Source: Fulvivirga sp.
Lineage (GTDB): Bacteria; Bacteroidota; Bacteroidia; Cytophagales; Cyclobacteriaceae
DNA: 44,013 nucleotides
Assembly: GCA_028280565.1 (NCBI GenBank)
Contig: JANQLQ010000281.1
Coordinates: forward strand, 1-44,013
Direction: 5' to 3'
Part shown: positions 9,655 through 44,007 of the stretch, piece after piece
Layout of the letters: each line of letters opens with the position of its first letter
Position numbering within the stretch: the stretch's first letter is position 1
Program-made: the position numbers and the translations under genes
The notes under the pieces: model-generated
Told to the model about the DNA's origin: nothing
The model's input: the letters and a program-made list of their open reading frames with translations, nothing else
Databases searched by the model: none

Positions 9655-9856
9655 TGGGATTAACACGAGTCGAGAGATCCTGGTTAAAGGAGAATAGAGA
9701 TACCTTTCTGAGTAGGTAGCAGGGCTTATCTCAAAAGGTGAAATTGAAATTTGAACATTATAAATTCTACTGGTTATGATATGAGGGGGTCCGAACTGTC
9801 GTAATACCCCTCTCTCAACACCTGTAAATAGTAACATATCCGAATTGATTACGCTA
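9655..9856. other. Non-coding gap before the first GH29 gene
   Basis: AT-rich sequence of about 200 bases with no gene or clear motif seen. Any promoter for the following GH29 gene would lie here, but none could be assigned. Confidence 0.4.
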
Positions 9857-11217
9857 ATGAGAACTTTTTACATATTTTGTATTTTATTTATTCCAGTTCA
9901 AATAGCCTGCGTGGAAGCACAATCATTATCCGGCCAGGACAGAATGGACTGGTGGAATGAGGCACGTTTTGGCATGTTTATCCATTTTGGTATATATTCT
10001 GTGCCCTCCGGTGTTTATAACGGTGAAATTATGGGACGCAATTGGTATGCCGAATGGATCCACATGCAGGGAAATTGGCCCAACGGTATTCCTGAAAAAG
10101 AATATAAAAAGTTTGCAAAGCAGTTCAATCCCAAAAGTTTTAATGCCGATGAGTGGATACGCATGGCCAAAGAAGCCGGTATGAAGTACTTTTTAATCAC
10201 AGCGAAACACCACGATGGATTTGCCCTTTGGCCAACTAAAGTTTCCAAATATAATGTAGTAGACGCCACACCTTTTAAAAGAGATATCTTAGGTGAGCTG
10301 GCATCGGCCTGCAAAAATATGGTGTCAAACTTGGGTTTTATTACTCGCATTGGCAGGACTGGGGGCATAAAGGGGGAGCAATGCCTCCCTGGCCGTCCAA
10401 TGAATTGGGTACAGAACCTAAAATGCCACAGCCAACCAAGGCTCAGTTCAATGATTATTGGAACAAAATCTGTTTGCCACAAGTACACGAATTAATTGAA
10501 AATTATGACCCACATTTTTTTTGGTTTGATACATGGGGAAAATCAGAACAAATCACCGATGAAAAAGTGGATGAGCTTATCGCCCATGTGCGAAAGTTAA
10601 GCGACAAATGCCTGATCAATAGCCGCATTGCTTTTGAATATGAGGGAATCGACAACAAAGTAGACTATCTTTCGATGATGGATAATTCTTTTCCTGATGG
10701 CTACATCGAGAAGCCATGGGAAACATCAGGTACCATGAATCGTTCCTGGGGATACCACCTGCTTGATTATGGATGGAAACCTACCGGGGAATTGTTACGA
10801 AACTTGGTAGCCAACGCTTCGCGAAATGGAAATTATCAATTGAATATTGGTCCAATGGCCGATGGCACTTTTCCGAAGCCAAGTATCAAGAGGTTGAAGG
10901 AAATTGGCGCATGGATGGATATCAACGGCGAGGCTATTTATGGAGCAAAGCCTAACCCCGTGGCCGAACAGGAATGGGGATACATCACAGCAAAAGAGAT
11001 GAAAAAGGGCACCAAACTCTATCTTTTCGTTTTTGACTGGGATAAATCGGGCAAAATAAAGGTGGAAAAACTCTTAAAAATACCCACTAAAATTCAGGTG
11101 CTTGAAACAGGTGAGGTTTTAAAGGGTACCAATTTAAAGGATGGACTGGAGATAATATTACCCGAATTTCGTCCCGACTTTAACTGCACGGTTATTACGG
11201 TCGACTTCAATAAGTAG
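9857..11217 (+). pseudogene. GH29 alpha-L-fucosidase interrupted by a one-base frameshift
   Basis: Two overlapping frames together make one GH29 enzyme of about 453 residues. The first frame has a signal peptide (about 1-22, starting MRTFYIF at ATG 9857), then WWNEARFGMFIHFGIYS and TAKHHDGFALWP. It breaks after CK at residue 153. In the other frame the protein resumes as KYGVKLGFYYSHWQDWGHK. The break is at the run of five A at 10313-10317; six would restore the frame. The second part carries FFWFDTWGK, whose Asp (about D225) is the expected GH29 nucleophile, and SRNGNYQLNIGPMADG. All key motifs survive, so this is either a very recent mutation or a homopolymer sequencing error. If intact, it would remove alpha-L-fucose from the ends of imported glycans. 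Confidence 0.85.
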
Positions 11218-17499: not shown

Positions 17500-17580
17500 A
17501 TGTATTCGGACAAGGACCTGGCCCTAGCTGATCCAGGCAAAGAATGAGGAATGTTTGGGTAACCTAGTATTTGTGTTCGC

Positions 17581-17634
17581 ATGAAAAGGGCATTATTTTT
17601 AGCAAGTTTGATTCTTTTGCTAATAAACCCATGA
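17581..17634 (+). other. Signal-peptide-like mini-ORF overlapping the sulfatase start
   Basis: ATG 17581 begins a 17-codon frame, MKRALFLASLILLLINP, whose TGA overlaps the sulfatase ATG as ATGA. It looks like an orphan signal peptide left by a lost gene. A leader peptide giving translational coupling is the alternative. The sequence alone does not decide between them. Confidence 0.35.
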
Positions 17635-19166
17635 ATAAAAGTATCGTCACTTTCTTGCTCCTATTTACACTGCTCTGTTGTTCCCGGGAACAGCAGGAAA
17701 ACGTCACTTCTCAAAGCAAGCCTAACATTATTTTGTTTTTCGTGGATGATATGGGCTGGCAGGATACATCGGTACCTTTCTGGCATAAGAGAACCCGTTC
17801 CAACGACCGTTATGGCACCCCCAATATGGAGCGATTGGCGGCTGAAGGGATGAAATTTACACAGGCTTACGCTACCCCGGTTTGCTCTCCTACCCGGGTA
17901 AGTCTCATGACCGGGATGAATGCTGCCCGCCATCGTGTTACCAACTGGACCTTGCGCAAAGATGCCCTGCAGCCTATGGAGACGAACCACAAGGAGTTGA
18001 CCTTTCCCCGTTGGAATGTTAACGGCCTGTGTCCTGTGCCCGGCTTGGGCTATTCCGTTCATGCCGATGCTTTGCCCAAGCTGCTCAAAGCAGCCGGCTA
18101 TTTTACCATCCATGCAGGAAAAGCGCACTTTGGGGCGATCGATACGCCGGCGGAAGATCCAAGAGCTATCGGGTTTGATGTAAATATTGCGGGTCATGCC
18201 GCGGGTGGGCCCAAAAGCTATTTGGGTACGGAGAATTTCGGAAATACCGAAGAGTTCAAGGATTCTCCTTGGCCTGTGCCTGGCCTGGAAAAATATCATG
18301 GAAAGGACATTTTTCTTACCGAAGCATTGACCCTCGAAGCAAAATCGGCAATGGACAGTGCATTGAAAAGTGATGCCCCGTTTTTTTTATACATGTCACA
18401 TTATGCGGTACATGTACCCATCATGGGGGACAACAGGTATTTGCAGAAGTACCTGGATGCCGGGTTAGATACGATCGAGGCCAAATACGCCACACTCATC
18501 GAAGGGATGGACAAAAGCCTGGGAGATATTATGGATTACCTGCAGGAAAGGCAGCTGGCAGATAATACGGTTATCTTATTCATGTCCGATAACGGGGGCC
18601 TCAGTGCGCACGGCAGGGGAGGCAGACCACATACCCATAATAAACCCCTGGCCAGCGGCAAAGGATCTATATACGAAGGAGGCATAAGAGAGCCCATGAT
18701 CGTCAAATGGCCGGGGGTGGCAGCGCCCGGTTCCTCCAATCACAATTATCTCATCATAGAAGATTTCTTTCCTACTATCCTGGAAATGGCCGGTGTTGGA
18801 GAATACAAAACCGTACAGGCCATTGACGGGCAAAGCTTTGTCTCCCTTTTAAAGGATACTACTTCCGGGCAAACAACCGAAAGACCACTTTTCTGGCACT
18901 ATCCAAACCATTGGGGCCCGAATGGTCCCGGCATTGGTGCGTTCAGCGCGGTACGTTTAGGGGACTGGAAGCTGATCTACTATCATCTGGACGAAAGCTA
19001 TGAATTGTTTAATATCGCTGACGATATTGGAGAGCAACAGGACCTGGCACAAGCTAACCCGGCTAAAAAGGCTGAATTATCAAAAATACTCGGGAGTTTT
19101 CTGAAGAAGGTGGGTGCACAGTTGCCCTGGCATAAACCGACCGGTAAAAAGGTCGCTTATCCGTAG
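17631..19166 (+). CDS. S1-family sulfatase (Cys-type), lipoprotein
   Basis: A 511-residue arylsulfatase-superfamily enzyme that would remove sulfate esters from a glycan. I chose ATG 17631 because it begins a lipoprotein signal (MNKSIVTFLLLFTLLCCSRE). Metal-binding Asp residues lie in FFVDDMGWQD (about 37-45). The formylglycine signature is TPVCSPTRVSLMTG with C85, which must be oxidised to formylglycine before the enzyme works. Further family motifs are HAGKAHFG, FLYMSHYAVHVPI, LFMSDNGG (second metal site) and GGIREPMIVKWPG. The C-terminal DWKLIYYHLDESYELFNI is intact. It is the first of three sulfatases, 29 bases before the next. Subfamily and sulfate position cannot be read from sequence alone. 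Confidence 0.94.
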   Translation: MNKSIVTFLLLFTLLCCSREQQENVTSQSKPNIILFFVDDMGWQDTSVPFWHKRTRSNDRYGTPNMERLAAEGMKFTQAYATPVCSPTRVSLMTGMNAARHRVTNWTLRKDALQPMETNHKELTFPRWNVNGLCPVPGLGYSVHADALPKLLKAAGYFTIHAGKAHFGAIDTPAEDPRAIGFDVNIAGHAAGGPKSYLGTENFGNTEEFKDSPWPVPGLEKYHGKDIFLTEALTLEAKSAMDSALKSDAPFFLYMSHYAVHVPIMGDNRYLQKYLDAGLDTIEAKYATLIEGMDKSLGDIMDYLQERQLADNTVILFMSDNGGLSAHGRGGRPHTHNKPLASGKGSIYEGGIREPMIVKWPGVAAPGSSNHNYLIIEDFFPTILEMAGVGEYKTVQAIDGQSFVSLLKDTTSGQTTERPLFWHYPNHWGPNGPGIGAFSAVRLGDWKLIYYHLDESYELFNIADDIGEQQDLAQANPAKKAELSKILGSFLKKVGAQLPWHKPTGKKVAYP

Positions 19167-19195
19167 GTTTCTAGCGTTTCAATCCTCACTTTGCA

Positions 19196-20668
19196 ATGGA
19201 GTTTAGAATAATAATATTACGTTCCGTCATGTGGGCAAAGCTTTGGAAGGTTACATATTTCCGTCAATTTTCATGTAGGGTGAAAACTGCACTATCACTG
19301 GTCATTATATTTTTGCATACGTACGATCTTGGCGCACAGGCCCGGGGACCTTCTAATAAGCCCAATTATGTACTGATCGTAGCAGATGACCTGGGGTTTG
19401 CCGACTTAAGCATCCATGGCAGTCAACAGATCAAGACCCCTAACATTGATGCGTTGGCCCAGGAAGGAGCTCGTTTTACGGAAGGCTATGTGTCATCCCC
19501 TGTCTGTAGCCCTTCGAGGGCAGGGTTGCTTACCGGGCGAAACCAGGTCGAGTTCGGTCACGACAATAACATAGGAGACAATCAACCGGGATTTGATCCT
19601 CAATATTTGGGTCTTCCTGTTACTGAAAAAACCATTGGAGATCATTTAAAGCCATTGGGCTATGTCAGTGGCTTGGTGGGGAAATGGCACTTGGGCTACG
19701 GATCGCAATTCCACCCGTTGAACAGGGGTTTTGATGAGTTTTGGGGCTATACCGGCGGAGGTCATGACTATTTTAGATCGTTACCCGATGGCCAGGGCTA
19801 CCTGTCACCCATAGCATGTAATTACAAAACCCCCGGGCCGATCACCTACATTACCGATGATAAGGGGGACGAATGTGTCGGTTTTATTGAAAGACACAAA
19901 AACCGGCCTTTCTTCCTGTATGCCTCTTTCAACGCTCCGCATACACCCATGCAGGCTACGGAAGAGGACCTGCAACGCTACCGGCATATTCCCGGTAAAA
20001 AACGAAGGGCTTACGCCGCCATGGTACACCGGCTCGACGTGAATGTAGGTAAGATCGTGAAGGCCATCGAAGAAAATGGCTTGAAAGAAAACACGATCAT
20101 CGTTTTCATTAGCGATAACGGCGGACCAGTGGAATCCAATGCGTCTGTTAATGCGCCCTACAACGGCCAAAAGGGGATTTTATTGGAAGGAGGTATCCAT
20201 GTGCCGTTCATCATCCATTGGCCGGGGACTATTCCGGCAGGGGTGGTCTATGACAAGCCGGTTTCTACACTGGACCTGGCGCCTACCTTTGTGGAGCTGT
20301 CCGGTGGTGAAAGCAACCAGGCAAAATTTAGTGGTGTAAACCTTATGCCCTATATTTTGAGTAGCAAGAGTACGGCGCCTCATGAAGAGCTGAAATGGCG
20401 TTTTACCATCAGTGCGGCCATCCGGCAGGGCGATTGGAAATTGGTGCGGGTACCCGATCGCTTGCCCATGCTGTATCATTTGCCATCGGATGTTTCGGAA
20501 CAAAAGAATGTCGCTTTAATGAATATCGAAAAAACCGAAGAGCTTTTAAAAAAACTGGGCCAGTGGGACGTAACACTGCCACACCCGGTATTTTTGGAGG
20601 GAGCGGTATGGAAAAAGCGGCAACTTGATCTGTACGATATGACGTATCCACTAGTACAACCGGAATAA
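19196..20668 (+). CDS. S1-family sulfatase (Cys-type)
   Basis: A 490-residue secreted sulfatase. Motifs are LIVADDLGFADLS (about 60-72), SPVCSPSRAGLLTG with the formylglycine Cys C104, GLVGKWHLGYG, FLYASFNAPHTPM, VFISDNGGPVE and LLEGGIHVPFIIHWPG. The N-terminus before the hydrophobic segment TALSLVIIFLHTYDLGAQ is long and basic. ATG 19229 (MWAKLWK) is an equally possible start giving a 479-residue protein. No clear lipobox is visible. It is tightly packed with sulfatases on both sides, so probably one transcript. It differs strongly from its neighbours, so the three sulfatases likely act on different sulfate positions or sugars. Confidence 0.93.
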   Translation: MEFRIIILRSVMWAKLWKVTYFRQFSCRVKTALSLVIIFLHTYDLGAQARGPSNKPNYVLIVADDLGFADLSIHGSQQIKTPNIDALAQEGARFTEGYVSSPVCSPSRAGLLTGRNQVEFGHDNNIGDNQPGFDPQYLGLPVTEKTIGDHLKPLGYVSGLVGKWHLGYGSQFHPLNRGFDEFWGYTGGGHDYFRSLPDGQGYLSPIACNYKTPGPITYITDDKGDECVGFIERHKNRPFFLYASFNAPHTPMQATEEDLQRYRHIPGKKRRAYAAMVHRLDVNVGKIVKAIEENGLKENTIIVFISDNGGPVESNASVNAPYNGQKGILLEGGIHVPFIIHWPGTIPAGVVYDKPVSTLDLAPTFVELSGGESNQAKFSGVNLMPYILSSKSTAPHEELKWRFTISAAIRQGDWKLVRVPDRLPMLYHLPSDVSEQKNVALMNIEKTEELLKKLGQWDVTLPHPVFLEGAVWKKRQLDLYDMTYPLVQPE

Positions 20669-20741
20669 GAACAGGATGTCAATACAAGCAAAAGCAGGTT
20701 TTGAATATGTTATATCGATGAACAGATGGTTTTGAATTAAA

Positions 20742-22289
20742 ATGATCAATAGAATGCGAATCGTATACCCCCGTGTTTGTATTATTCAATGGTTGGCCGT
20801 ATTGCTATGTGCTGGCTGTCAACCAAAAGTCGGCGGGGAAGAGACACAAAACAAGCCCAACATCCTGTTCCTGTTTGCTGATGACCATACCTATGATGCC
20901 ATCCATGCTTTTGGTAATCACATTATCCATACACCTAATCTCGACAGGCTAGCGGGGGCAGGCGTTTCCTTTACTCATTCCTACAATATGGGGAGCTGGA
21001 CAGGAGCAGTATGCCTGTCTTCCCGGGCCATGATCATGTCAGGCAGGTCGGTTTGGGATGCAAAGGTACACTCCGAGCGGTGGGAACAAAGCGATGATAT
21101 CGCTGCATCTCAAAACTGGGGGCAGCTCATGCGTGAACAAGGTTATAATACCTACATGACAGGAAAATGGCATATAAAACATCCTGCTGACCAGGTTTTT
21201 GACGTTGTAAAGCACGAAAGGCCGGGAATGCCCAAAGACCATTGGGATTCGAAAAAAATCGGTGAAATGAAAAAACTGCTGGCAGAAGACAAGGACATCC
21301 AGTCTTTAATGCCTGTTGGATACTCTCGTCCCGTTAGCTCTACCGACACGTCCTGGTCGCCCACCGACACACGACATGGCGGTTATTGGAAAGGTGGCAA
21401 ACACTGGAGTGAGGTAGTCAAAGAAGACGCGCTGGAATTTATTGCAGATGCTGCGCAAAAAGAAGACCCTTTTTTCATGTACGTGGCATTTAATGCACCC
21501 CATGATCCCAGGCAGGCCCCACGGGAGTTTTTAGATCGTTATCCGCTGGAAAACATCCCCTTACCTAGCAATTGGCTCCCGGAATATCCCTATCACAATG
21601 AAATAGGGTGTTCGCGATTCCTAAGAGATGAAATGCTGGCGCCCTTTCCTCGTACATCCCACGCCACCAGGACACATCTCAAAGAATATTACGCCATCAT
21701 CACCCATCTCGATGCACAGATCGGCGACATCCTGGATGCGCTTGAAGCGTCTGGCAAAGCAGGGAATACGTATATCTTCTTTACAGCCGACCACGGGCTG
21801 TCGGTGGGCCGTCATGGGCTGCTGGGTAAGCAGAACCTTTTCGACCACAGTATCCGGGTGCCACTTATTGTAACCGGTCCAGGGATTCCCGTCAACCAAA
21901 AGAGGCCTGTCGATATCTACTTGCAGGATATCATGGCCACAAGCCTTGAGCTGGCAGGTGTGCCAAAGCCGGGTTATCTTTTCTTTAATAGCTTCCTGGA
22001 CGTAGCCAAAGGAAAAGCGGCAGAAGGAGCTTACGACGAAGAGGGTATCTACGGCACTTACATTGATTTTCAACGCATGATCAGGAAGGATGACTTCAAG
22101 CTGATCGTTTATCCCAAAATAAAAAAAGTCTTGCTGTTTGATATGAAAAATGATCCCGGGGAAATGAATGACCTCGCATCGCTTCCGCAATACCGGGAAC
22201 GTACCAAGTCTATGTTCGCAAGCTTACTTAAACTGCAGGCTAAAATGAATGATCCGCTGGATTTAAGATCAATGTATAATGAACTGTAA
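20742..22289 (+). CDS. S1-family sulfatase (Cys-type, C-x-S-x-R), lipoprotein
   Basis: A 515-residue sulfatase. The signal peptide ends in a lipobox, LLCAGCQP (lipidated C26). Metal-site motif LFLFADDHTYDAIH (about 42-55) is followed by the formylglycine signature GAVCLSSRAMIMSG with C91; Ser replaces the more usual Pro at the third position, which is known for active sulfatases. Later motifs are MTGKWHIKH, FMYVAFNAPHDPRQAP, FFTADHGLSVGRHGLLGKQN and DHSIRVPLIVTGPG. The ATG at 20742 or the one at 20754 (MRIVYP) could start the protein. It lies 73 bases after the second sulfatase and 98 bases before GH95. Confidence 0.93.
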   Translation: MINRMRIVYPRVCIIQWLAVLLCAGCQPKVGGEETQNKPNILFLFADDHTYDAIHAFGNHIIHTPNLDRLAGAGVSFTHSYNMGSWTGAVCLSSRAMIMSGRSVWDAKVHSERWEQSDDIAASQNWGQLMREQGYNTYMTGKWHIKHPADQVFDVVKHERPGMPKDHWDSKKIGEMKKLLAEDKDIQSLMPVGYSRPVSSTDTSWSPTDTRHGGYWKGGKHWSEVVKEDALEFIADAAQKEDPFFMYVAFNAPHDPRQAPREFLDRYPLENIPLPSNWLPEYPYHNEIGCSRFLRDEMLAPFPRTSHATRTHLKEYYAIITHLDAQIGDILDALEASGKAGNTYIFFTADHGLSVGRHGLLGKQNLFDHSIRVPLIVTGPGIPVNQKRPVDIYLQDIMATSLELAGVPKPGYLFFNSFLDVAKGKAAEGAYDEEGIYGTYIDFQRMIRKDDFKLIVYPKIKKVLLFDMKNDPGEMNDLASLPQYRERTKSMFASLLKLQAKMNDPLDLRSMYNEL

Positions 22290-36097: not shown

Positions 36098-36235
36098 AGG
36101 TATTAAAACAGGGAGCTCCGGGGAAGCTGGGATACATGACTTCATTTAAAAATTCACCTGGTAACAAAAGAGTGATAAAAGATACAGTCCTAGGAGAAAT
36201 TAATACAGATGCTACCTGTGTATAAAATAATAATT

Positions 36236-38446
36236 ATGAATTTCAGTAAGATGAGGTACTTCATTATTTCATTAGGCATATTATCTTTTTTGACATTTGC
36301 CCAATGTTCGCAACATAAGTATAGAGCAGACTTTTATGTGTCAACCAGTGGTAACGATTCCTGGTCCGGAAGGCTCGATGCTCCCAATGAAAATGGCACG
36401 GATGGACCGTTTAAGACATTGACAAAAGCGCGTGACGCAGTTCGTTCCGAAATTCCCAATTCAGAAGGAGATGTTATGGTGATGATACGGGGTGGCAAGT
36501 ACGTACTGGATGAGACCGTTGTATTTGGATTAGAAGATTCCGGAAACGAAAAGTGCCGGATCATTTACAGGAATTACCCCAATGAAAAACCCGTGTTTAC
36601 ATCAGGGTATGCCATTAGAGGTTGGAAAAAAGTGGAGGAGGACATCGATGATTTGCCGGAAAATGCAAAAGGTAAAATATTCGTAGCCCGTTTGCCTGCA
36701 AATTTTCGTCATTTTTCATCGCTTTATGAAGATTCTGTGGCTTTGCCCCGGGCGAGAAGCGAAGGCACCGTACTCCCGTCCAGGCCCGGTGACTGGCAAT
36801 ATGAAGATAAAGGTTCATTTATTTTTGAGAAGGGGACGTTAAGGAACTGGGAAAATATGGGAGATGTGGATGTGGTGATAAGACCGTATTATGCGTGGGT
36901 GATGAATATCCTGCCGCTCAAAAGTATCGACGAAAAAAATAATGTCGCACATACGTCTGTTATAGGTACTTACCCCTTGCGAAAGTTTAGATGGGGCCGG
37001 GGAACCGTCAATATGTGGGTTGAAAATGCATTAAATGAATTGGACAGGCCCGGGGAATGGGTTTATAATAGCAGCTCGGGAAAATTGTACCTGTGGCCAA
37101 AAAACGGCTCACCTGGCGATAAAATTGTATCTCCGCAGCTCATCGAGTTATTCCGTATTGAAGGAGGAATAGACTATGCGGGAAAAACCGATAAAGCTGT
37201 AAAGAACCTGGTTTTTGAAGGATTGAATTTCACCTGTGCAGATTACTTCCGGAGGACAAATGATTGGATCGGAAAAGGTATCCAGCACGATTGGGAGTAC
37301 TTTGATGCCGCCACGGCAATGGTCCGGATGCGCGGAGCCGAGCACTGCGAGGTGAAGAATTGCAGGTTCTCACAAAGTAGTGCCTCTGCCATTCGTTTGG
37401 ATCTGCATTGTCAAAATAATGATATCTCGGGTAACGTCATCAAAAACATGGGGGGTACAGGAATATTGTTAGCGGGCTATGGCCCAGGTACAAAAGATGT
37501 AAATAAAAACAACAGGATAACCCATAACCACATTAGTGATATAGGAAAGGTGTACTGGCACAGCCCGGCCATTTTCCTGTGGCAAAGTGGGAGTAATCTC
37601 GTCTCCAATAACCTCATTTACCGTACGCCATACACCGGGATAGTTGTCAGCGGAAGGATCATATGGGATAAAGCCGGGAAAGGGGAATGTTCGAAGACCG
37701 TTCGCTGGCACGAAGTGGGCACAACTACCGGGAGTAGTACGTGGAAAGAAAGGGAGCCGTTTTTGCACGGCCGTAACAATATTATTGAGAAAAATGATAT
37801 TCACCATGTGATGGAGGTGATGGGAGATGGAAATGGCATCTACATTTCAGGGGCAGGGACAGGTAATATTGTACGGAAAAACTATATACATGATTGTCCT
37901 TCAGCGCATTTTGCAGAAGGCATCCGGTGTGATGATGATCAACATGAAACCACCATTGAGTCTAACATAGTGACACGGTTGGGTGGAATGGCAACGGGTA
38001 TTTGCAGCAAAGGGCGGAATGACATTATTAATAATGTTATTGCCATGCCTCTCAATGCCCCCGCACGAGGCTTGATATCCCTGGAAGGAACTCCAATTGA
38101 TGGAAGTGTGATTGAGCGTAACATTGTGATCGTTGATGATCCAAATAGTCTTGTGTACTATCAACGGCGTACCTCCGGGGCTGGTGGAGATCCAAAACTC
38201 ACAGATTGTAAAGTGGATAAAAACATTTATTACTGCACGGCTGACAAGAATTGGGGCAAAGCCCAATTGGAAGATCGACAGTCAAGGGGTATTGAATTAA
38301 AGAGCCTGGTCTCGGATCCGTTTTTCGTGGATGTCACGAATGATAATTTCAGGCTAAATAAAAATTCTCCGGCACTCCGGCTGGGGTTTAAACAGATAGA
38401 TATGGAGGAAATGGGGTTAAGGAACTGCGAGAATTCCATCCGGTAA
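36236..38446 (+). CDS. Lipoprotein with right-handed beta-helix, GH141-like
   Basis: A 736-residue protein if it starts at ATG 36236 (MNFSKMRYF); a start nine codons upstream is also open. The signal peptide ends in LTFAQCSQ, a plausible lipobox. It opens with DFYVSTSGNDSWSGRLDAPN and DGPFKTLTKARDAVR, the standard entry of large beta-helix glycan enzymes. It then has SVALPRARSEG and repeated turns such as NDISGNVIKNMGGTGILLAG, HNHISDIGKVYWHSPAIFLW and NDIHHVMEVMGDGNGIYISG. This architecture fits GH141, a family with alpha-L-fucosidase and xylanase members that is frequent in fucoidan-degrading loci, but GH120 or a lyase cannot be excluded. It is the last gene of PUL 2, 139 bases after the modular helix protein. 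Confidence 0.75.
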   Translation: MNFSKMRYFIISLGILSFLTFAQCSQHKYRADFYVSTSGNDSWSGRLDAPNENGTDGPFKTLTKARDAVRSEIPNSEGDVMVMIRGGKYVLDETVVFGLEDSGNEKCRIIYRNYPNEKPVFTSGYAIRGWKKVEEDIDDLPENAKGKIFVARLPANFRHFSSLYEDSVALPRARSEGTVLPSRPGDWQYEDKGSFIFEKGTLRNWENMGDVDVVIRPYYAWVMNILPLKSIDEKNNVAHTSVIGTYPLRKFRWGRGTVNMWVENALNELDRPGEWVYNSSSGKLYLWPKNGSPGDKIVSPQLIELFRIEGGIDYAGKTDKAVKNLVFEGLNFTCADYFRRTNDWIGKGIQHDWEYFDAATAMVRMRGAEHCEVKNCRFSQSSASAIRLDLHCQNNDISGNVIKNMGGTGILLAGYGPGTKDVNKNNRITHNHISDIGKVYWHSPAIFLWQSGSNLVSNNLIYRTPYTGIVVSGRIIWDKAGKGECSKTVRWHEVGTTTGSSTWKEREPFLHGRNNIIEKNDIHHVMEVMGDGNGIYISGAGTGNIVRKNYIHDCPSAHFAEGIRCDDDQHETTIESNIVTRLGGMATGICSKGRNDIINNVIAMPLNAPARGLISLEGTPIDGSVIERNIVIVDDPNSLVYYQRRTSGAGGDPKLTDCKVDKNIYYCTADKNWGKAQLEDRQSRGIELKSLVSDPFFVDVTNDNFRLNKNSPALRLGFKQIDMEEMGLRNCENSIR

Positions 38447-39336: not shown

Positions 39337-39362
39337 ATGTATGAATTTGAAAATGAATGATC

Positions 39363-39968
39363 ATGAAAAAGAGAGTAAAATTAGGAGTGTTTTTTGTCGT
39401 TGTAGGGTTTACCTTTTCAGCATGTTCAAAAGAGGATAGCCCTCCAGTAGATGAGCGGACGTTTGGTATTTTCACCGTGCAGGACGATGGGGTAACAGTG
39501 TTGGCCAATGGGGACATCCGGACCCGGACCTTGGCTGATTTTAACAAAATGATAGAAGCCTTTCCGAATATCGGGCAGATCCACATAAAAGAGATGCCAG
39601 GGTCTTTGGATGATGAGACCAACGTACAAATAGGAAGACTTATTTATGGCAGGAACATCGATACGCATTTGCTCGATGGAGGGCTCATCGCCTCCGGGGG
39701 TGTGGACTTTTACCTGGCCGGGAAAGCGAGAACATTGGGGAATGAGGTAATGGTAGGGGTACATTCATGGTCAGACGGTAACAAGGAAGCAACGGATTTC
39801 CCCGAGAATGCACCGGAACACGACCTGTTCATCGATTACTACAAGGCTATTGGGTTTGGTGATCAGTTTGCCAGGGATTTTTACTTCTTTACCATAAATG
39901 CCGCCGCTGCTGATGATATCCATTACATGAGTTCGTCCGAGATTGAAAAATTCCAGTTGGAAAGGTGA
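39363..39968 (+). CDS. Small lipoprotein with ClpP/crotonase-like fold and possible Ser-His-Asp triad
   Basis: A 201-residue protein beginning MKKRVKLGV; ATG 39357 two codons earlier is possible. The lipobox is GFTFSACSK (C21). The core follows the ClpP pattern: a strand and PGS loop (HIKEMPGSLDDETNVQIGRL) where ClpP has the SPGG oxyanion loop, then LIASGGVDFYLAGK with S111 where ClpP has its nucleophile, VGVHSWSDG with H134, and DDIHYMSSSEIEKFQL, matching the RDxFMSAEEAxEYGL end of ClpP that carries the Asp. This suggests a periplasmic or surface ClpP-class hydrolase, distantly like COG3904 proteins. It ends soon after that motif. Its function and any link with the PULs are unknown. Confidence 0.6.
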   Translation: MKKRVKLGVFFVVVGFTFSACSKEDSPPVDERTFGIFTVQDDGVTVLANGDIRTRTLADFNKMIEAFPNIGQIHIKEMPGSLDDETNVQIGRLIYGRNIDTHLLDGGLIASGGVDFYLAGKARTLGNEVMVGVHSWSDGNKEATDFPENAPEHDLFIDYYKAIGFGDQFARDFYFFTINAAAADDIHYMSSSEIEKFQLER

Positions 39969-40264
39969 GATGGTACTCAAAAGCAGTGTTTTATAACATT
40001 GGATTTTAATTATTTGAGCAACCTTAATGGTCGTGAGTGACAATGTTGAGAGCACTACTGGGCAAAATAGTGTTGACCTAGCTCTATATAAAAATAATTA
40101 AAGAGTAAAGAATATCCCTTAGTGATTCTTTGAGCTTTGGTGCCTTGGTGGCAAAGCTTCCTCGGCCACCAAGGCACAAATGCACTAAGGTCCACCAAGC
40201 TTAGGAGCCAAAACTATCCTGTACAATATAAAAGTGATAAATGATTATTGAGTTGAGATTTCAA
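39969..40264. other. Intergenic gap with a dispersed-repeat hairpin
   Basis: No gene seen. GTGCCTTGGTGG (40140-40151) and CCACCAAGGCAC (40166-40177) form a perfect 12-bp stem. The surrounding text (CACCAAGGCACAAATGCACT) is the kind of short dispersed repeat found between genes in many bacteria. It may also serve as a terminator for the lipoprotein gene, though it lies about 170 bases downstream. Confidence 0.5.
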
Positions 40265-40495
40265 GGATTTGTAATCCGGGTGCTCTCGTTTATGACTAAT
40301 GACCAAAGTACGCTCTTACTAATCCTCCCCGGGAGTGCTTAAAGAAGGCAGAAAACATCCAACGAGTACCACCCCTGGTTGTGTATGGCTGTCAAAGTAA
40401 ATGGTTCGAAGCGCATTACAAATGCGCAGGGAGGAAAGCGATTTACGACCGAATGTGTTGAAGATGGGTACGCTTTATAAAAGCGCGCCAGGTAG
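40265..40495 (+). repeat. About 230-bp direct repeat A, copy 1
   Basis: Nearly identical to 43190-43418, with a few mismatches and one- or two-base indels. It contains several small palindromes: GGATTTGTAATCC, CTCCCCGGGAG, GCGCATTACAAATGCGC and CGCTTTATAAAAGCG. No open frame crosses it. With its partner it brackets the minus-strand FGE-like/GH29 gene. Confidence 0.85.
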
Positions 40496-40656
40496 TAGAG
40501 TAAATGGTTGAAGTAGGCGAAGGTAATGTAGAAACTTGCATTATTTTTCTCATCATTGTCAGAGTGCTGAACTTGGTTCGCCAACTTACCTCAAACACGT
40601 TCTATGGATGAGAAACGAGGAATATACACTCAAGTATTAAAGGTAAGAGAGTTTTT

Positions 40657-40760: not shown

Positions 40761-42923
40761 CTATTCCTCTGTTGTGGATAAAGCCATATTTTTTATACTT
40801 GGCTTGCCTTTGAGTTCAACGGACACAACCCAACCAAAACTATCTGTTTTTTCTTTAGGTAAGTCAATGTTTAATTTGTTCTCATCAGTATTAAAATCAA
40901 GTGCTTGCTTTGATGCACTTAAATAAGCTTTTGATACTTTATTATTGACACCTTCAATTACAAGTTTGCCATCTTTCGGATAACTGTAAACAAAGAAATT
41001 CAAGCGTGAACGACTCCCATTACTCAATACGGTATTTGATTTTCCATCAAACAGTAAGTTGCTGAATTTTGATGCGCTGGTACCAAAAATTTCAGATTTA
41101 TATTTCTGCACCATATCACCAAACTCATTGAGAATATCAACGGCTACGACAGGGACATTGCCTTTGGCATCGGGGCCAATATTAAGCAATAAGTTACCCC
41201 CTTTGCTGTTGACATCTACAAGAATTTTAAACAACTGTTCGGAAGATTTCCAATGTGTATCGTGTGCACTATAACCGAAACTCTCATTCATAGTATGGCA
41301 AACTTCCCAAGCATTACTGGCGAACCCTGTTGCTGGTACGTATTTTTCTGGTGTTACATAATCACCATAGGGGTTCTCTATGCCATTCCAAAAGCGATTG
41401 CTAACTACAATACCTGGCTGTTCTTGGGCAATCATTTCCAATAACCCCTTAGTATTCCATGTTTTGCCTTGCTTACTTGCACTGCTGTAATCTGACCATA
41501 ATAAATCAATTTTTCCGTAGTCGGTCATGAGTTGTTTGATATGACTGTGGCAATAGTCCAAGTAATCAGCGGTATTATCGGTACGTTTTGAATTGTTCAG
41601 TTCATAATGGAAAGGTGAATCCGGGTGTTGCCAATCGATCAGTGAATAATAGAGTCCAACTTTTATGTCTTCTTCCCTAAAAGCTTCAACATATTCTCCT
41701 AAGAGATCCCGGCCTTCCGGCGAAATGCTAACATCTACACCATATGGATTGTTCTTCTTTTTAGCATAGGGGTGCTTTGTGTTGAACAAAGTAAAACCGT
41801 CATGATGTTTGGAAGTCAAAACCGCATAGCGTGCACCAATATGTTTGGCCAATTTTGCCCACTTCTTAGGGTCGTAATCTTCAGCGATGAAACCGGGTCT
41901 CAATTGTTCCGCATAATCCTTTGTGTCGGCCTGTGACCATACTTGTATCCATTCGGCATAATGTTGTCCATAACGCTTTCCTTTATAATAACCGCCGCCT
42001 GCACTGTACAATCCCCAATGAATAAACATTCCCAATTTGGCTTCTTTGAACCACCGGGTACGTGTTTCTTTTGTTTTGGTGAAATGTTCAACACCTTCAT
42101 AGGGCAATTGGCGCATTAAGGTGGTGTCAGCGCTGGTTTTAATAGGAGTACTTACTTTCGGCGGTTTATTGTTTTCAGTTTCGTAGACCACTCGAAAGCC
42201 AACATCATGCATGTTATACCAAGGCATATAGCTACTGCGATCTGCCACACGAGAATAAGGCGCATCATCGTTTAAATAGCTGCCACCACGTACCGCATAA
42301 AAAGAACCGCTGTTTGGACCAAGCGGATTTACTTGTGCTTCCGTGGGGTAATCGCCATACCAACTGCGGCACCATTCCCAAACATTTTCGCTCATATCAT
42401 ATAGGCCCAACTCGTTGGGCAACTTAGTGCCAACATGGTGCAATCTTCCGCCATCGCTATTTTTATCAACCTTCATAGCCCCTTTAGCATAACGGTATCC
42501 TTCGCTCTTAAGTCCTCCCCGGGCAGCAAATTCCCACTGCGCTTCTGTGGGCAGTAGTATCTTTTTGCCAAGTTTCTTACTCAGCCATTCACAATACTTT
42601 CTGGCCCTGTGAATATTTACGTATCTAATAGGCTCATTATCATGAGGTGCATCGATATATTCCCTTGGCATTTTATTGTCAGTAGCTTCACAAAATGCAC
42701 GATACTGTCCCACAGTTATTTCCTTTGGGCTAATATAAAAAGTACTTACAGTCACCTCGTATGGTTTTTCATCTAAATCTCCATAGACATCACCCATAAT
42801 AAAAGTGCCACCTTCAACTTCGATAAAACCAGGTATTTGTGAAGCAGAAGCCAAGGCAGGTGCAAATGCTACTATCACAACAAAAGCAAGCAACGGCTGC
42901 AAGGTTTTCTTATTTTTTTTCAT
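40761..42923 (-). CDS. FGE-like (SUMF1-type) domain fused to GH29 alpha-L-fucosidase
   Basis: A 720-residue secreted protein; the signal peptide is about 1-28. Residues about 30-247 form a formylglycine-generating-enzyme-like domain (PF03781 type): VEGGTFIMGD, LPTEAQWEFAARGG, LYDMSENVWEWCRSWYGDYP, VRGGSYLNDDAPYSRVADRS and the closing VGFRVV. In true FGEs the stretch after RGGSW carries the copper-binding cysteines. Here that stretch has none, so this half is probably a binding or structural module. Residues about 285-620 are GH29: RWFKEAKLGMFIHWGLYS, TSKHHDGFTLF, VGLYYSLIDWQHPDSP, KIDLLWSDYS with presumed nucleophile D478, and GGNLLLNIGPDAKG. A C-terminal beta-sandwich follows. It stands alone on the opposite strand between about 230-bp direct repeats, suggesting separate acquisition. 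Confidence 0.92.
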   Translation of the reverse strand: MKKNKKTLQPLLAFVVIVAFAPALASASQIPGFIEVEGGTFIMGDVYGDLDEKPYEVTVSTFYISPKEITVGQYRAFCEATDNKMPREYIDAPHDNEPIRYVNIHRARKYCEWLSKKLGKKILLPTEAQWEFAARGGLKSEGYRYAKGAMKVDKNSDGGRLHHVGTKLPNELGLYDMSENVWEWCRSWYGDYPTEAQVNPLGPNSGSFYAVRGGSYLNDDAPYSRVADRSSYMPWYNMHDVGFRVVYETENNKPPKVSTPIKTSADTTLMRQLPYEGVEHFTKTKETRTRWFKEAKLGMFIHWGLYSAGGGYYKGKRYGQHYAEWIQVWSQADTKDYAEQLRPGFIAEDYDPKKWAKLAKHIGARYAVLTSKHHDGFTLFNTKHPYAKKKNNPYGVDVSISPEGRDLLGEYVEAFREEDIKVGLYYSLIDWQHPDSPFHYELNNSKRTDNTADYLDYCHSHIKQLMTDYGKIDLLWSDYSSASKQGKTWNTKGLLEMIAQEQPGIVVSNRFWNGIENPYGDYVTPEKYVPATGFASNAWEVCHTMNESFGYSAHDTHWKSSEQLFKILVDVNSKGGNLLLNIGPDAKGNVPVVAVDILNEFGDMVQKYKSEIFGTSASKFSNLLFDGKSNTVLSNGSRSRLNFFVYSYPKDGKLVIEGVNNKVSKAYLSASKQALDFNTDENKLNIDLPKEKTDSFGWVVSVELKGKPSIKNMALSTTEE

Positions 42924-43189
42924 AAAATCTATGTTATTCTTGATAAGAGGTTAATAGTTCATTACTTGTTTTTTGCTGCGCCTTCTTTGAAACGTTGTAG
43001 TGCTATTGAATTTTCCTTAAACACTAAGCAGCCACTGCTTGTCATTTTCAACCCGTATTGTAAAACTACTTATCCGGTGTTTTCGATGAAATGTTAGGTT
43101 TAACCAATCTTGTGTATGTTTTGACTTTTAGTAAAATGCTCAACTAGTGCGCATTTAGCGGAACGTAATGCGTACTCATCGAGGCAATA
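42924..43189. other. Upstream region of the FGE-like/GH29 gene
   Basis: About 265 bases without a gene. It should contain the minus-strand promoter. I could not identify a convincing Bacteroidota TTTG / TAnnTTTG pair at standard spacing. Confidence 0.35.
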
Positions 43190-43418
43190 GGATTTGTAAT
43201 CCGGATGCTCTCGTTTATGCCTAATGACCAAAGTAAGCCCTTACTAATCCTCCCCGGGAGTGCTTAAAGAAGGCAGAAAACATCCAACGAGTACCACCCC
43301 TGGTGTGTATGGCTGTTAAAGTAAATGGCTCGAAGTGGATTACAAATGCGCAGGAGGAAAGCGATTTACGACCGAATGTGTTGAAGATGGGCACGCTTTA
43401 TAAAAGCGCGCCAGGTAG
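43190..43418 (+). repeat. About 230-bp direct repeat A, copy 2
   Basis: Partner of 40265-40495, in the same orientation, with the same set of small palindromes. The sequence outside the repeat does not match on either side, so the repeat ends are sharp. Its right end abuts repeat B copy 1. Confidence 0.85.
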
Positions 43419-43597
43419 TTCTACCTTGTCACATTCAATTATTGGATAGGCAGGGATTTAACGATAAGTGAGCCCATTGGATATCCTCGTCAAAAACGAA
43501 AAAGACCTTCTTTATCGTCATTCCTGCCGGCCTTGCCGGGTGAGCAATGCGCGAGAGCAGGAATCTGCTTTGTCGTTGAACGTGAACCCTTTTTTTG
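43419..43597 (+). repeat. About 180-bp direct repeat B, copy 1
   Basis: Matches 43829-44007 with about nine mismatches. It includes the hairpin pair CATTCCTGC...GCAGGAATC with an intervening CCGGCCTTGCCGG palindrome. This resembles the widespread CGTCATTCCTGC-type intergenic repeats. No coding frame is credible. Confidence 0.8.
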
Positions 43598-43828
43598 CGT
43601 ATACTGGGTTTTCGTTTCACGACTTCGCAGATTCCTTGTCACGCCTGGCCCAACGCACAGGCTGCAAGGAATGACGATGTTAGAAAGTTAAGGAATGACG
43701 TTCTTAGGTATGGTTTTGGATGGATTTAGAACAGGATGTGGATCACCCATTCTTTACAACTCGCTGGCACTAAGCTTGAAACTACAAATATCATTATCAA
43801 TTACTTAAACCTGGAAAAGTAGTCCTAT
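43598..43828. other. Spacer between the two repeat B copies
   Basis: No gene. An inverted pair GATTCCTTG and CAAGGAATG (about 43629-43676) is a variant of the hairpin inside repeat B, so the whole 43.4-44.0 kb stretch is one cluster of related repeat units. Confidence 0.5.
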
Positions 43829-44007
43829 TTCTACCTTGTCATATTCAATTGTTGGATAGGCAGGGATTTAACGATAAGTGAGCCCATTGGATATCCTCAT
43901 CAAAAACGAAAAAGACCTTCTTTATCGTCATTCCTGCCGGCCTTGCCGGGTGAGCGATGCGCGAGAGCAGGAATCTGCTGTGTCGTTGGACGTGAACCCT
44001 TTTTTTG
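43829..44007 (+). repeat. About 180-bp direct repeat B, copy 2
   Basis: Second copy of the unit at 43419-43597, in the same orientation. It ends at the T-run six bases before the window edge. The array may continue beyond the window. Confidence 0.8.

Follow-up and report, generated by a model that had tools for sequence, protein, structure and literature searches.

In the Fulvivirga sp. contig JANQLQ010000281.1, one reading frame of a 44,013-nucleotide stretch (the whole of the DNA analyzed, hereafter the window) joins a domain of the formylglycine-generating enzyme (FGE) type to a GH29 α-L-fucosidase, and this raises the question of what such a domain does on a glycosidase. Proteins matching PF03781 often carry the FGE name, as do several database entries among the relatives of this protein ("formylglycine-generating enzyme"); for the fusion clade that name would be wrong. 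The alternative role, recognition of a glycan on a fucosidase, could be assayed with one purified domain.

Architecture of the fusion protein

The gene is a single intact open reading frame of 720 codons plus a stop, with no internal stops (features are collected in Table 1). Its N-terminal half matches PF03781 (E 9e-41; 140.6 bits against a curated cut-off of 23.3) and its C-terminal half PF01120, the GH29 family (E 1.6e-77). The initial annotation, made from the letters of the sequence, had described a secreted chain with these two parts, and both are indeed found in one frame; secretion is probable, given what reads as an ordinary signal peptide at the N-terminus. One fused orthologue, the metagenome protein P0043, has a lipoprotein-like start (FSSCKK). 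A gene-model error joining two separate genes is ruled out, as both domains lie in one frame in seven sequences and the linker between them is conserved among the fusions (PIKTS..TTL.RQLPYEGV).

Table 1. Positions in the window of the fusion gene, its parts and neighboring features
Feature	Position	Strand	Remarks
Left flanking repeat copy, families D2-D4	40264..40496	.	
Right flanking repeat copy, families D2-D4	43189..43419	.	
Whole gene	40761..42923	-	720-aa fusion of predicted FGE-type CLec domain and GH29 fucosidase, probably secreted
Probable signal peptide, ~residues 1-27	42843..42923	-	Sequence read by eye
PF03781 FGE-sulfatase domain, residues 30-246, without copper cysteines	42186..42836	-	Pfam and alignments
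Recognition-face equivalent, residues 212-246, RGGSYLNDDAPYSRVADRSSYMPWYNMHDVGFRVV	42186..42290	-	
Stretch matching the cysteine pair of true FGEs, residues 217-229, Cys-free	42237..42275	-	
Inter-domain linker, residues 247-284	42072..42185	-	
GH29 alpha-L-fucosidase catalytic barrel, residues 285-608	41100..42071	-	
C-terminal beta-sandwich, GH29 type, ~residues 620-711	40791..41066	-	
GH141-like beta-helix protein	36209..38446	+	GH141_M 23.3 bits (cut-off 27); Beta_helix 63.8 bits
Three Cys-type sulfatase genes	17571..22289	+	18-23 kb from fusion

The best solved match of the C-terminal part is the GH29 fucosidase 6gn6 (E 9.2e-77). Asp478, in the stretch LLWSDYS, is invariant in 7/7 fusions and aligned to the LWFDFS Asp of 6gn6, so that by homology it would hold the position of the GH29 nucleophile. 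Glu540, also invariant in the fusions, is aligned with a Glu in 6gn6 and is a candidate acid/base, although that residue aligns poorly among GH29A enzymes (passages of PMC10154630). The GH29 part is a predicted fucosidase.

Structure prediction was one of the checks proposed for this gene. Two AlphaFold models were obtained (pTM 0.71 and 0.58; mean pLDDT 70 in the second); in the first, alignment rows covering only the fucosidase were misplaced into the N-terminal domain, and both are poor around residues 147–159, 179–189 and 217–228. The GH29 part matched GH29 folds, the best 50 matches per model in the fold searches being GH29 enzymes only, while the N-terminal module received no confident model. 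Because the matches in the fold searches lie at residues 266 onward, the fold of the N-terminal domain is taken from its sequence matches.

The cysteine pair and FGE identity

In searches of PDB sequences, the N-terminal domain matches the FGEs 6muj (E 1.4e-21) and 2q17 (E 3.1e-21), and its third-best solved match is 2y3c, a Treponema variable protein (E 1.9e-18), identified as TvpA in passages of PMC5006420. Likeness to FGE (SUMF1/FGE) extends through the PF03781 region, where the LPTEAQWE, NELGLYDM and WEWC stretches align, but the fusion protein lacks the catalytic/copper cysteines, has a shorter loop and carries an attached glycosidase. In alignments with the solved FGEs 6muj, 2q17 and 6s07, Asn218 and Tyr223 stand where those enzymes have the cysteines of their S[YF]LCH[DE]SYC motif, and the active-site stretch is two residues shorter here. 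Five cysteines occur in the whole protein (at 78, 111, 185, 458 and 542), none of them within residues 212–246. The observation that no cysteine follows RGGSY (about residues 217–230) is thus borne out by these alignments and by the fused relatives. Shifted catalytic cysteines are ruled out, the 35 residues from RGGSY or RGGGY being free of Cys in 7/7 fused proteins and in the unfused relative P0236; in the fusion of genome L026, Gly replaces the Ser of RGGS.

The near relatives are for the most part not two-cysteine FGEs either, judging from two counts. We aligned 244 PF03781 domains drawn by similarity to the present protein, nine of them being this protein, its fused relatives or duplicates; by the strict criterion of Cys in both columns, only the host's own FGE (C259, added deliberately) has the pair. 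Among the 120 PF03781-only matches listed, P0236 included, the 12 residues after the motif hold one Cys in 62, none in 25, two in 2 and three in 1, and the remaining 30 lack the motif as written. The alignment with characterized FGEs and PF03781 members that the initial annotation had called for finds the pair absent both here and in most near relatives.

A profile search of the 9.05-Mb host genome returned six PF03781 matches. C259, which has both cysteines (GGSFLCNDSYC), scores highest at 259.5 bits; we call it an FGE from its Pfam match and two cysteines only, as it reaches the cut-off of no NCBIfam equivalog model. The others are GldK (C11; 450 bits, cut-off 350), GldJ (C134; 642 bits, cut-off 382.9), EgtB (C49; 556 bits, cut-off 360), the present gene (C18) and a GldJ/GldK-like fragment scoring under the cut-offs (C92). 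Since a two-cysteine protein is encoded elsewhere in the genome, maturation of the host's 71 sulfatase matches need not depend on the fusion gene.

Face conservation and the fused clade

TvpA and its kin have an FGE-type subtype of the C-type-lectin (CLec) fold, and in such variable proteins the β3–β5 region is the putative ligand site, its ligand segment matching the catalytic-triad segment of human FGE (passages of PMC5006420 and PMC6328139). Residues 212–246 of the fusion protein stand at the position of both the FGE active site and the retroelement variable region, and are conserved in the fused clade. By the same sources, TvpA, Mtd and TaqVP, which are variable proteins from diversity-generating retroelements, share with the present domain their sequence family and the RGGS-to-GFR ligand region; here, in contrast, the domain is N-terminal, the face is fixed and no genomic template copy was found. 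A whole-genome search with a 141-base query for a template-like copy of the face DNA returned only the query itself, and no repeats of at least 30 nt occur inside the fusion gene. With the face DNA single-copy and the gene repeat-free, an active diversity-generating retroelement at this gene is ruled out.

We compared identity on the face (residues 218–241) with identity on the scaffold (residues 32–211) in 119 PF03781-only relatives, six of them longer than 330 aa, and in the fused clade, taken as eight proteins including P0236; 118 of the 7,021 relative pairs were dropped for poor coverage. At 60%–70% scaffold identity, the face is 36% identical among relatives (641 pairs), against 59%–70% for seven other 24-residue blocks, and 63% identical within the clade (17 pairs), against 58%–73% for the other blocks. 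Face identity in clade versus relatives is 0.71 (one pair) versus 0.29 (4,320 pairs) in the 50%–60% bin, 0.78 (four) versus 0.46 (418) in the 70%–80% bin and 0.81 (six) versus 0.52 (159) in the 80%–90% bin. The clade mean is reached by 3.9%, 11% and 17% of relative pairs in the 60%–70%, 70%–80% and 80%–90% bins, respectively. These full pair sets overlap and are not independent; for disjoint pairs in the matched bin the clade mean is 0.64 (three pairs) versus 0.41 in relatives (40 pairs). The weakest clade member is P0014, with a face 50%–62% identical to that of every other member. By these sequence comparisons, the face diverges faster than the scaffold in short PF03781-only relatives, but not in the fucosidase-linked clade. 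Within residues 212–246, R212, G213, G214, Y216, P222, Y223, S224, R225, V226, D228, R229, Y232, Y236, D240, G242 and R244 are invariant in the eight clade members, and four of these (Y216, P222, S224 and Y232) are rare (0%–12%) in 40 aligned relatives. Outside the face, E179 takes the place of a glycine that is invariant in the same 40.

A search for other GH29 proteins with this N-terminal domain, also suggested at the outset together with a look at their neighbors, brought to light six further fusions, the three in assembled genomes sitting in fucosidase-rich loci. The architecture recurs at 65%–85% identity in three other assembled genomes, namely L026 (a MAG labeled Croceivirga; 85%), L027 (Prolixibacteraceae; 84%) and L028 (Carboxylicivirga; 81%), and in the metagenome proteins P0006, P0014 and P0043; P0001 duplicates the window's protein (99%), and P0002 appears to be L027's. 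The fusion is rare. Five fusions stand among the best 120 of 7,020 matches, and the identical five among the best 120 of 7,937; no other glycoside-hydrolase domain joined to PF03781 was recognized by Pfam name in the best 120 of 7,020. Four matches were found in 395 sampled genomes of the phylum (E ≤ 1e-80), with both domains in the window's own and GH29 alone in the other three. Among 71 genomes of L028's family only L028 has the fusion, and 395 genomes of the class searched with P0236 (E ≤ 1e-55) yielded two proteins, that of the window's gene and a relative at 44%.

The MAG labels, which may be wrong, fall in Flavobacteriaceae, Prolixibacteraceae and Marinilabiliaceae. This scatter over three families, together with a GC3 of 0.365 in the fusion gene (0.417–0.562 in 16 other window genes compared), suggests that the gene has moved by horizontal transfer. 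It is flanked by near-identical repeats in the same orientation, ~2.92 kb apart, of a sequence with 29 genome-wide matches (itself included; 75%–100% identity, some partial). These may be a small mobile element, and the fusion gene may have come in as a cassette. The window also holds a direct repeat of 182 nt (43416–43597 and 43826–44007; copies 96% identical and 410 bases apart), which shares positions with one arm of an imperfect inverted repeat of 39 nt.

A two-gene version of the fusion probably exists. Among the matches listed, the unfused protein closest to the N-terminal domain is P0236 (294 aa; 65% local identity; 59% over 245 columns), and the one closest to the fucosidase is P0121 (466 aa; 69%). 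The longest contig reported for each is 15,878 bases, which makes it likely that the two are adjacent. The apparent signal peptide of P0121 ends directly before RQLPYEGV, the end of the linker in the fused chain. In a FastTree tree of N-terminal domains, P0236 is sister to the seven fusions (8 of 148 tips, support 0.999; fusions alone 0.90), and in one of fucosidases P0121 and another GH29 protein, P0122, stand beside the fusions (9 of 40 tips, support 1.0; fusions alone 0.17); these supports leave either order possible, fusion then split or split then fusion. That a glycoside hydrolase took over a CLec scaffold, as a neighboring gene first and by fusion later, and that the scaffold thereby became a frozen, dedicated glycan receptor, is a tentative history to which we give somewhat less than an even chance.

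Role of the N-terminal module

We estimate a probability of roughly 50% that the N-terminal module is an accessory recognition domain, similar to a carbohydrate-binding module (CBM), that keeps the fucosidase on its polymer. The module would be an FGE-type CLec fold that lost formylglycine-generating chemistry or never had it, and the site that serves a sulfatase peptide in FGE and changing ligands in retroelement proteins would have become fixed on one ligand. If that ligand is a fucose-containing glycan, as we infer, the catalytic barrel would be held on the polymer. Recruitment of the fold as a binding module, one of the proposals of the initial annotation, is supported by the cysteine loss, by the separate two-cysteine C259, by relatives poor in the cysteine pair and by a face that is conserved here and variable in unfused relatives; the glycan part of that proposal keeps the standing of a conjecture. 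A fucose-containing glycan is the most likely object of the frozen face, and contact with the fucosidase is otherwise to be considered.

Accessory domains are common in GH29 enzymes such as 6gn6, where the known ones are normally C-terminal β-sandwiches, some of them CBM32 or CBM35, with a binding role awaiting validation; the passages of PMC10154630 that describe them make no mention of an FGE-type module. Close parallels in kind are the GH29–sulfatase fusions of Pontiella (PDESU_05015) and Rhodopirellula (RRSWK_03833), which likewise pair GH29 with a sulfatase-related partner in polysaccharide degraders; their partner, however, is the S1 sulfatase itself (passages of PMC6388578), and not a cysteine-less FGE-type domain. 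We found no paper on a GH29–FGE-type fusion in the open-access literature. If binding is confirmed, the modules that tether fucosidases to fucose-rich polysaccharides would gain one of the FGE-type CLec kind; if the frozen-receptor history is also true, carbohydrate-binding modules would have a new type, one in which a variable recognition scaffold has come to a natural fixed endpoint.

Packing against the fucosidase would lead one to expect a conserved face just as much. In this main rival reading, which we hold to be about half as likely, the module would be an intramolecular partner whose face abuts or covers the GH29 active site and shapes aglycone subsites or an oligomer, and would not bind glycan by itself. 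The face is conserved both in the fusions and in unfused P0236, the probable neighbor of a matching GH29, P0121, which fits a heteromeric interface later made covalent; a fixed contact with the fucosidase would also explain the two-gene version, and the conserved linker counts in the same direction, as does active-site complementation in 6gn6, the closest solved GH29 (according to a title cited in PMC10154630). Against such a contact, neither model (pTM 0.71 and 0.58) gives it with confidence, and P0122, a GH29 of the same clade, apparently carries a signal peptide itself, and the best 120 of 7,691 matches include no partner with its longest-contig figure.

Returning to the accessory recognition domain, the neighborhoods point to a fucose-rich polysaccharide such as fucoidan as the likely candidate substrate. 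In the window a SusC/SusD set and the GH141-like gene run opposite to the fusion; a GH29, two GH95 and the three sulfatases lie further off. Next to the fusion, L026 has an MFS protein, two GH141-like proteins, a GH29, a DUF2961 protein, an AraC regulator, a fucose isomerase and an FGGY kinase; L027 has three DUF2961 proteins, a GH29, an MFS and a GH141-like protein; and L028 has a DUF2961 protein, three GH29, a GH43-like protein, FecR, SusC/SusD and a phosphatase. We take DUF2961 to be GH172. Endo-fucanases of family GH141 have been reported (PMC12786026). Two minor features of the window are a 203-aa lipoprotein-like frame between the GH141-like gene and the fusion (39357–39968), with no Pfam match, and a GH29 gene broken into two overlapping frames (9845–11217), either a frameshifted pseudogene or an assembly error.

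The initial annotation had also raised the idea that the domain directs the fucosidase toward sulfated targets, to which docking on the co-encoded sulfatases may be added; we regard this as improbable. Three Cys-type sulfatases are present in the window as it had stated, with Cys in each maturation motif (CSPTR, CSPSR and a non-canonical CLSSR), though they sit past the second SusC/SusD set as seen from the fusion, and PF00884 matches number 71 in the window's host, 16 in L026, 55 in L027 and 101 in L028. Yet within at most ~10 kb on each side of the fusion (353 bases on one side in L027), PF00884 is found in 0/12, 0/6 and 0/11 neighboring frames of at least 200 aa in L026, L027 and L028, respectively, and the nearest sulfatase among the matches listed for L026 is ~33 kb off on the same contig, C40. 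Sulfatase linkage was thus not found as a conserved trait in these three relatives, and the guidance idea is weak; the glycan itself may still be sulfated. The third sulfatase of the window (20742–22289) is the one with CLSSR in place of CxPxR.

Slightly less probable still is a passenger role, in which the N-terminal domain would bind no ligand and serve as a spacer for secretion or folding: P0121 and P0122 do encode the GH29 part without it, but face conservation in the clade is at scaffold level, whereas the face of the relatives decays, and the fusion has been kept in MAGs labeled as three families. Other chemistry on the same fold, as in EgtB, SenA or PvdO, is the least probable reading, for although NCBIfam models of EgtB, SenA, OvoA and PvdO and PDB entries of PvdO, EgtB-IV and OvoA are matched, the NCBIfam scores are all far under cut-off (PvdO 52/500, EgtB 50/360) and there is no extra Pfam domain such as the further N-terminal half that EgtB and OvoA have.

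Many metagenome FGE-type domains among the matches listed are joined to dockerin, PEGA or protein-kinase domains (we take PF00404 to be dockerin and PF08308 to be PEGA), from which it appears that FGE-type domains are widely used as modules.
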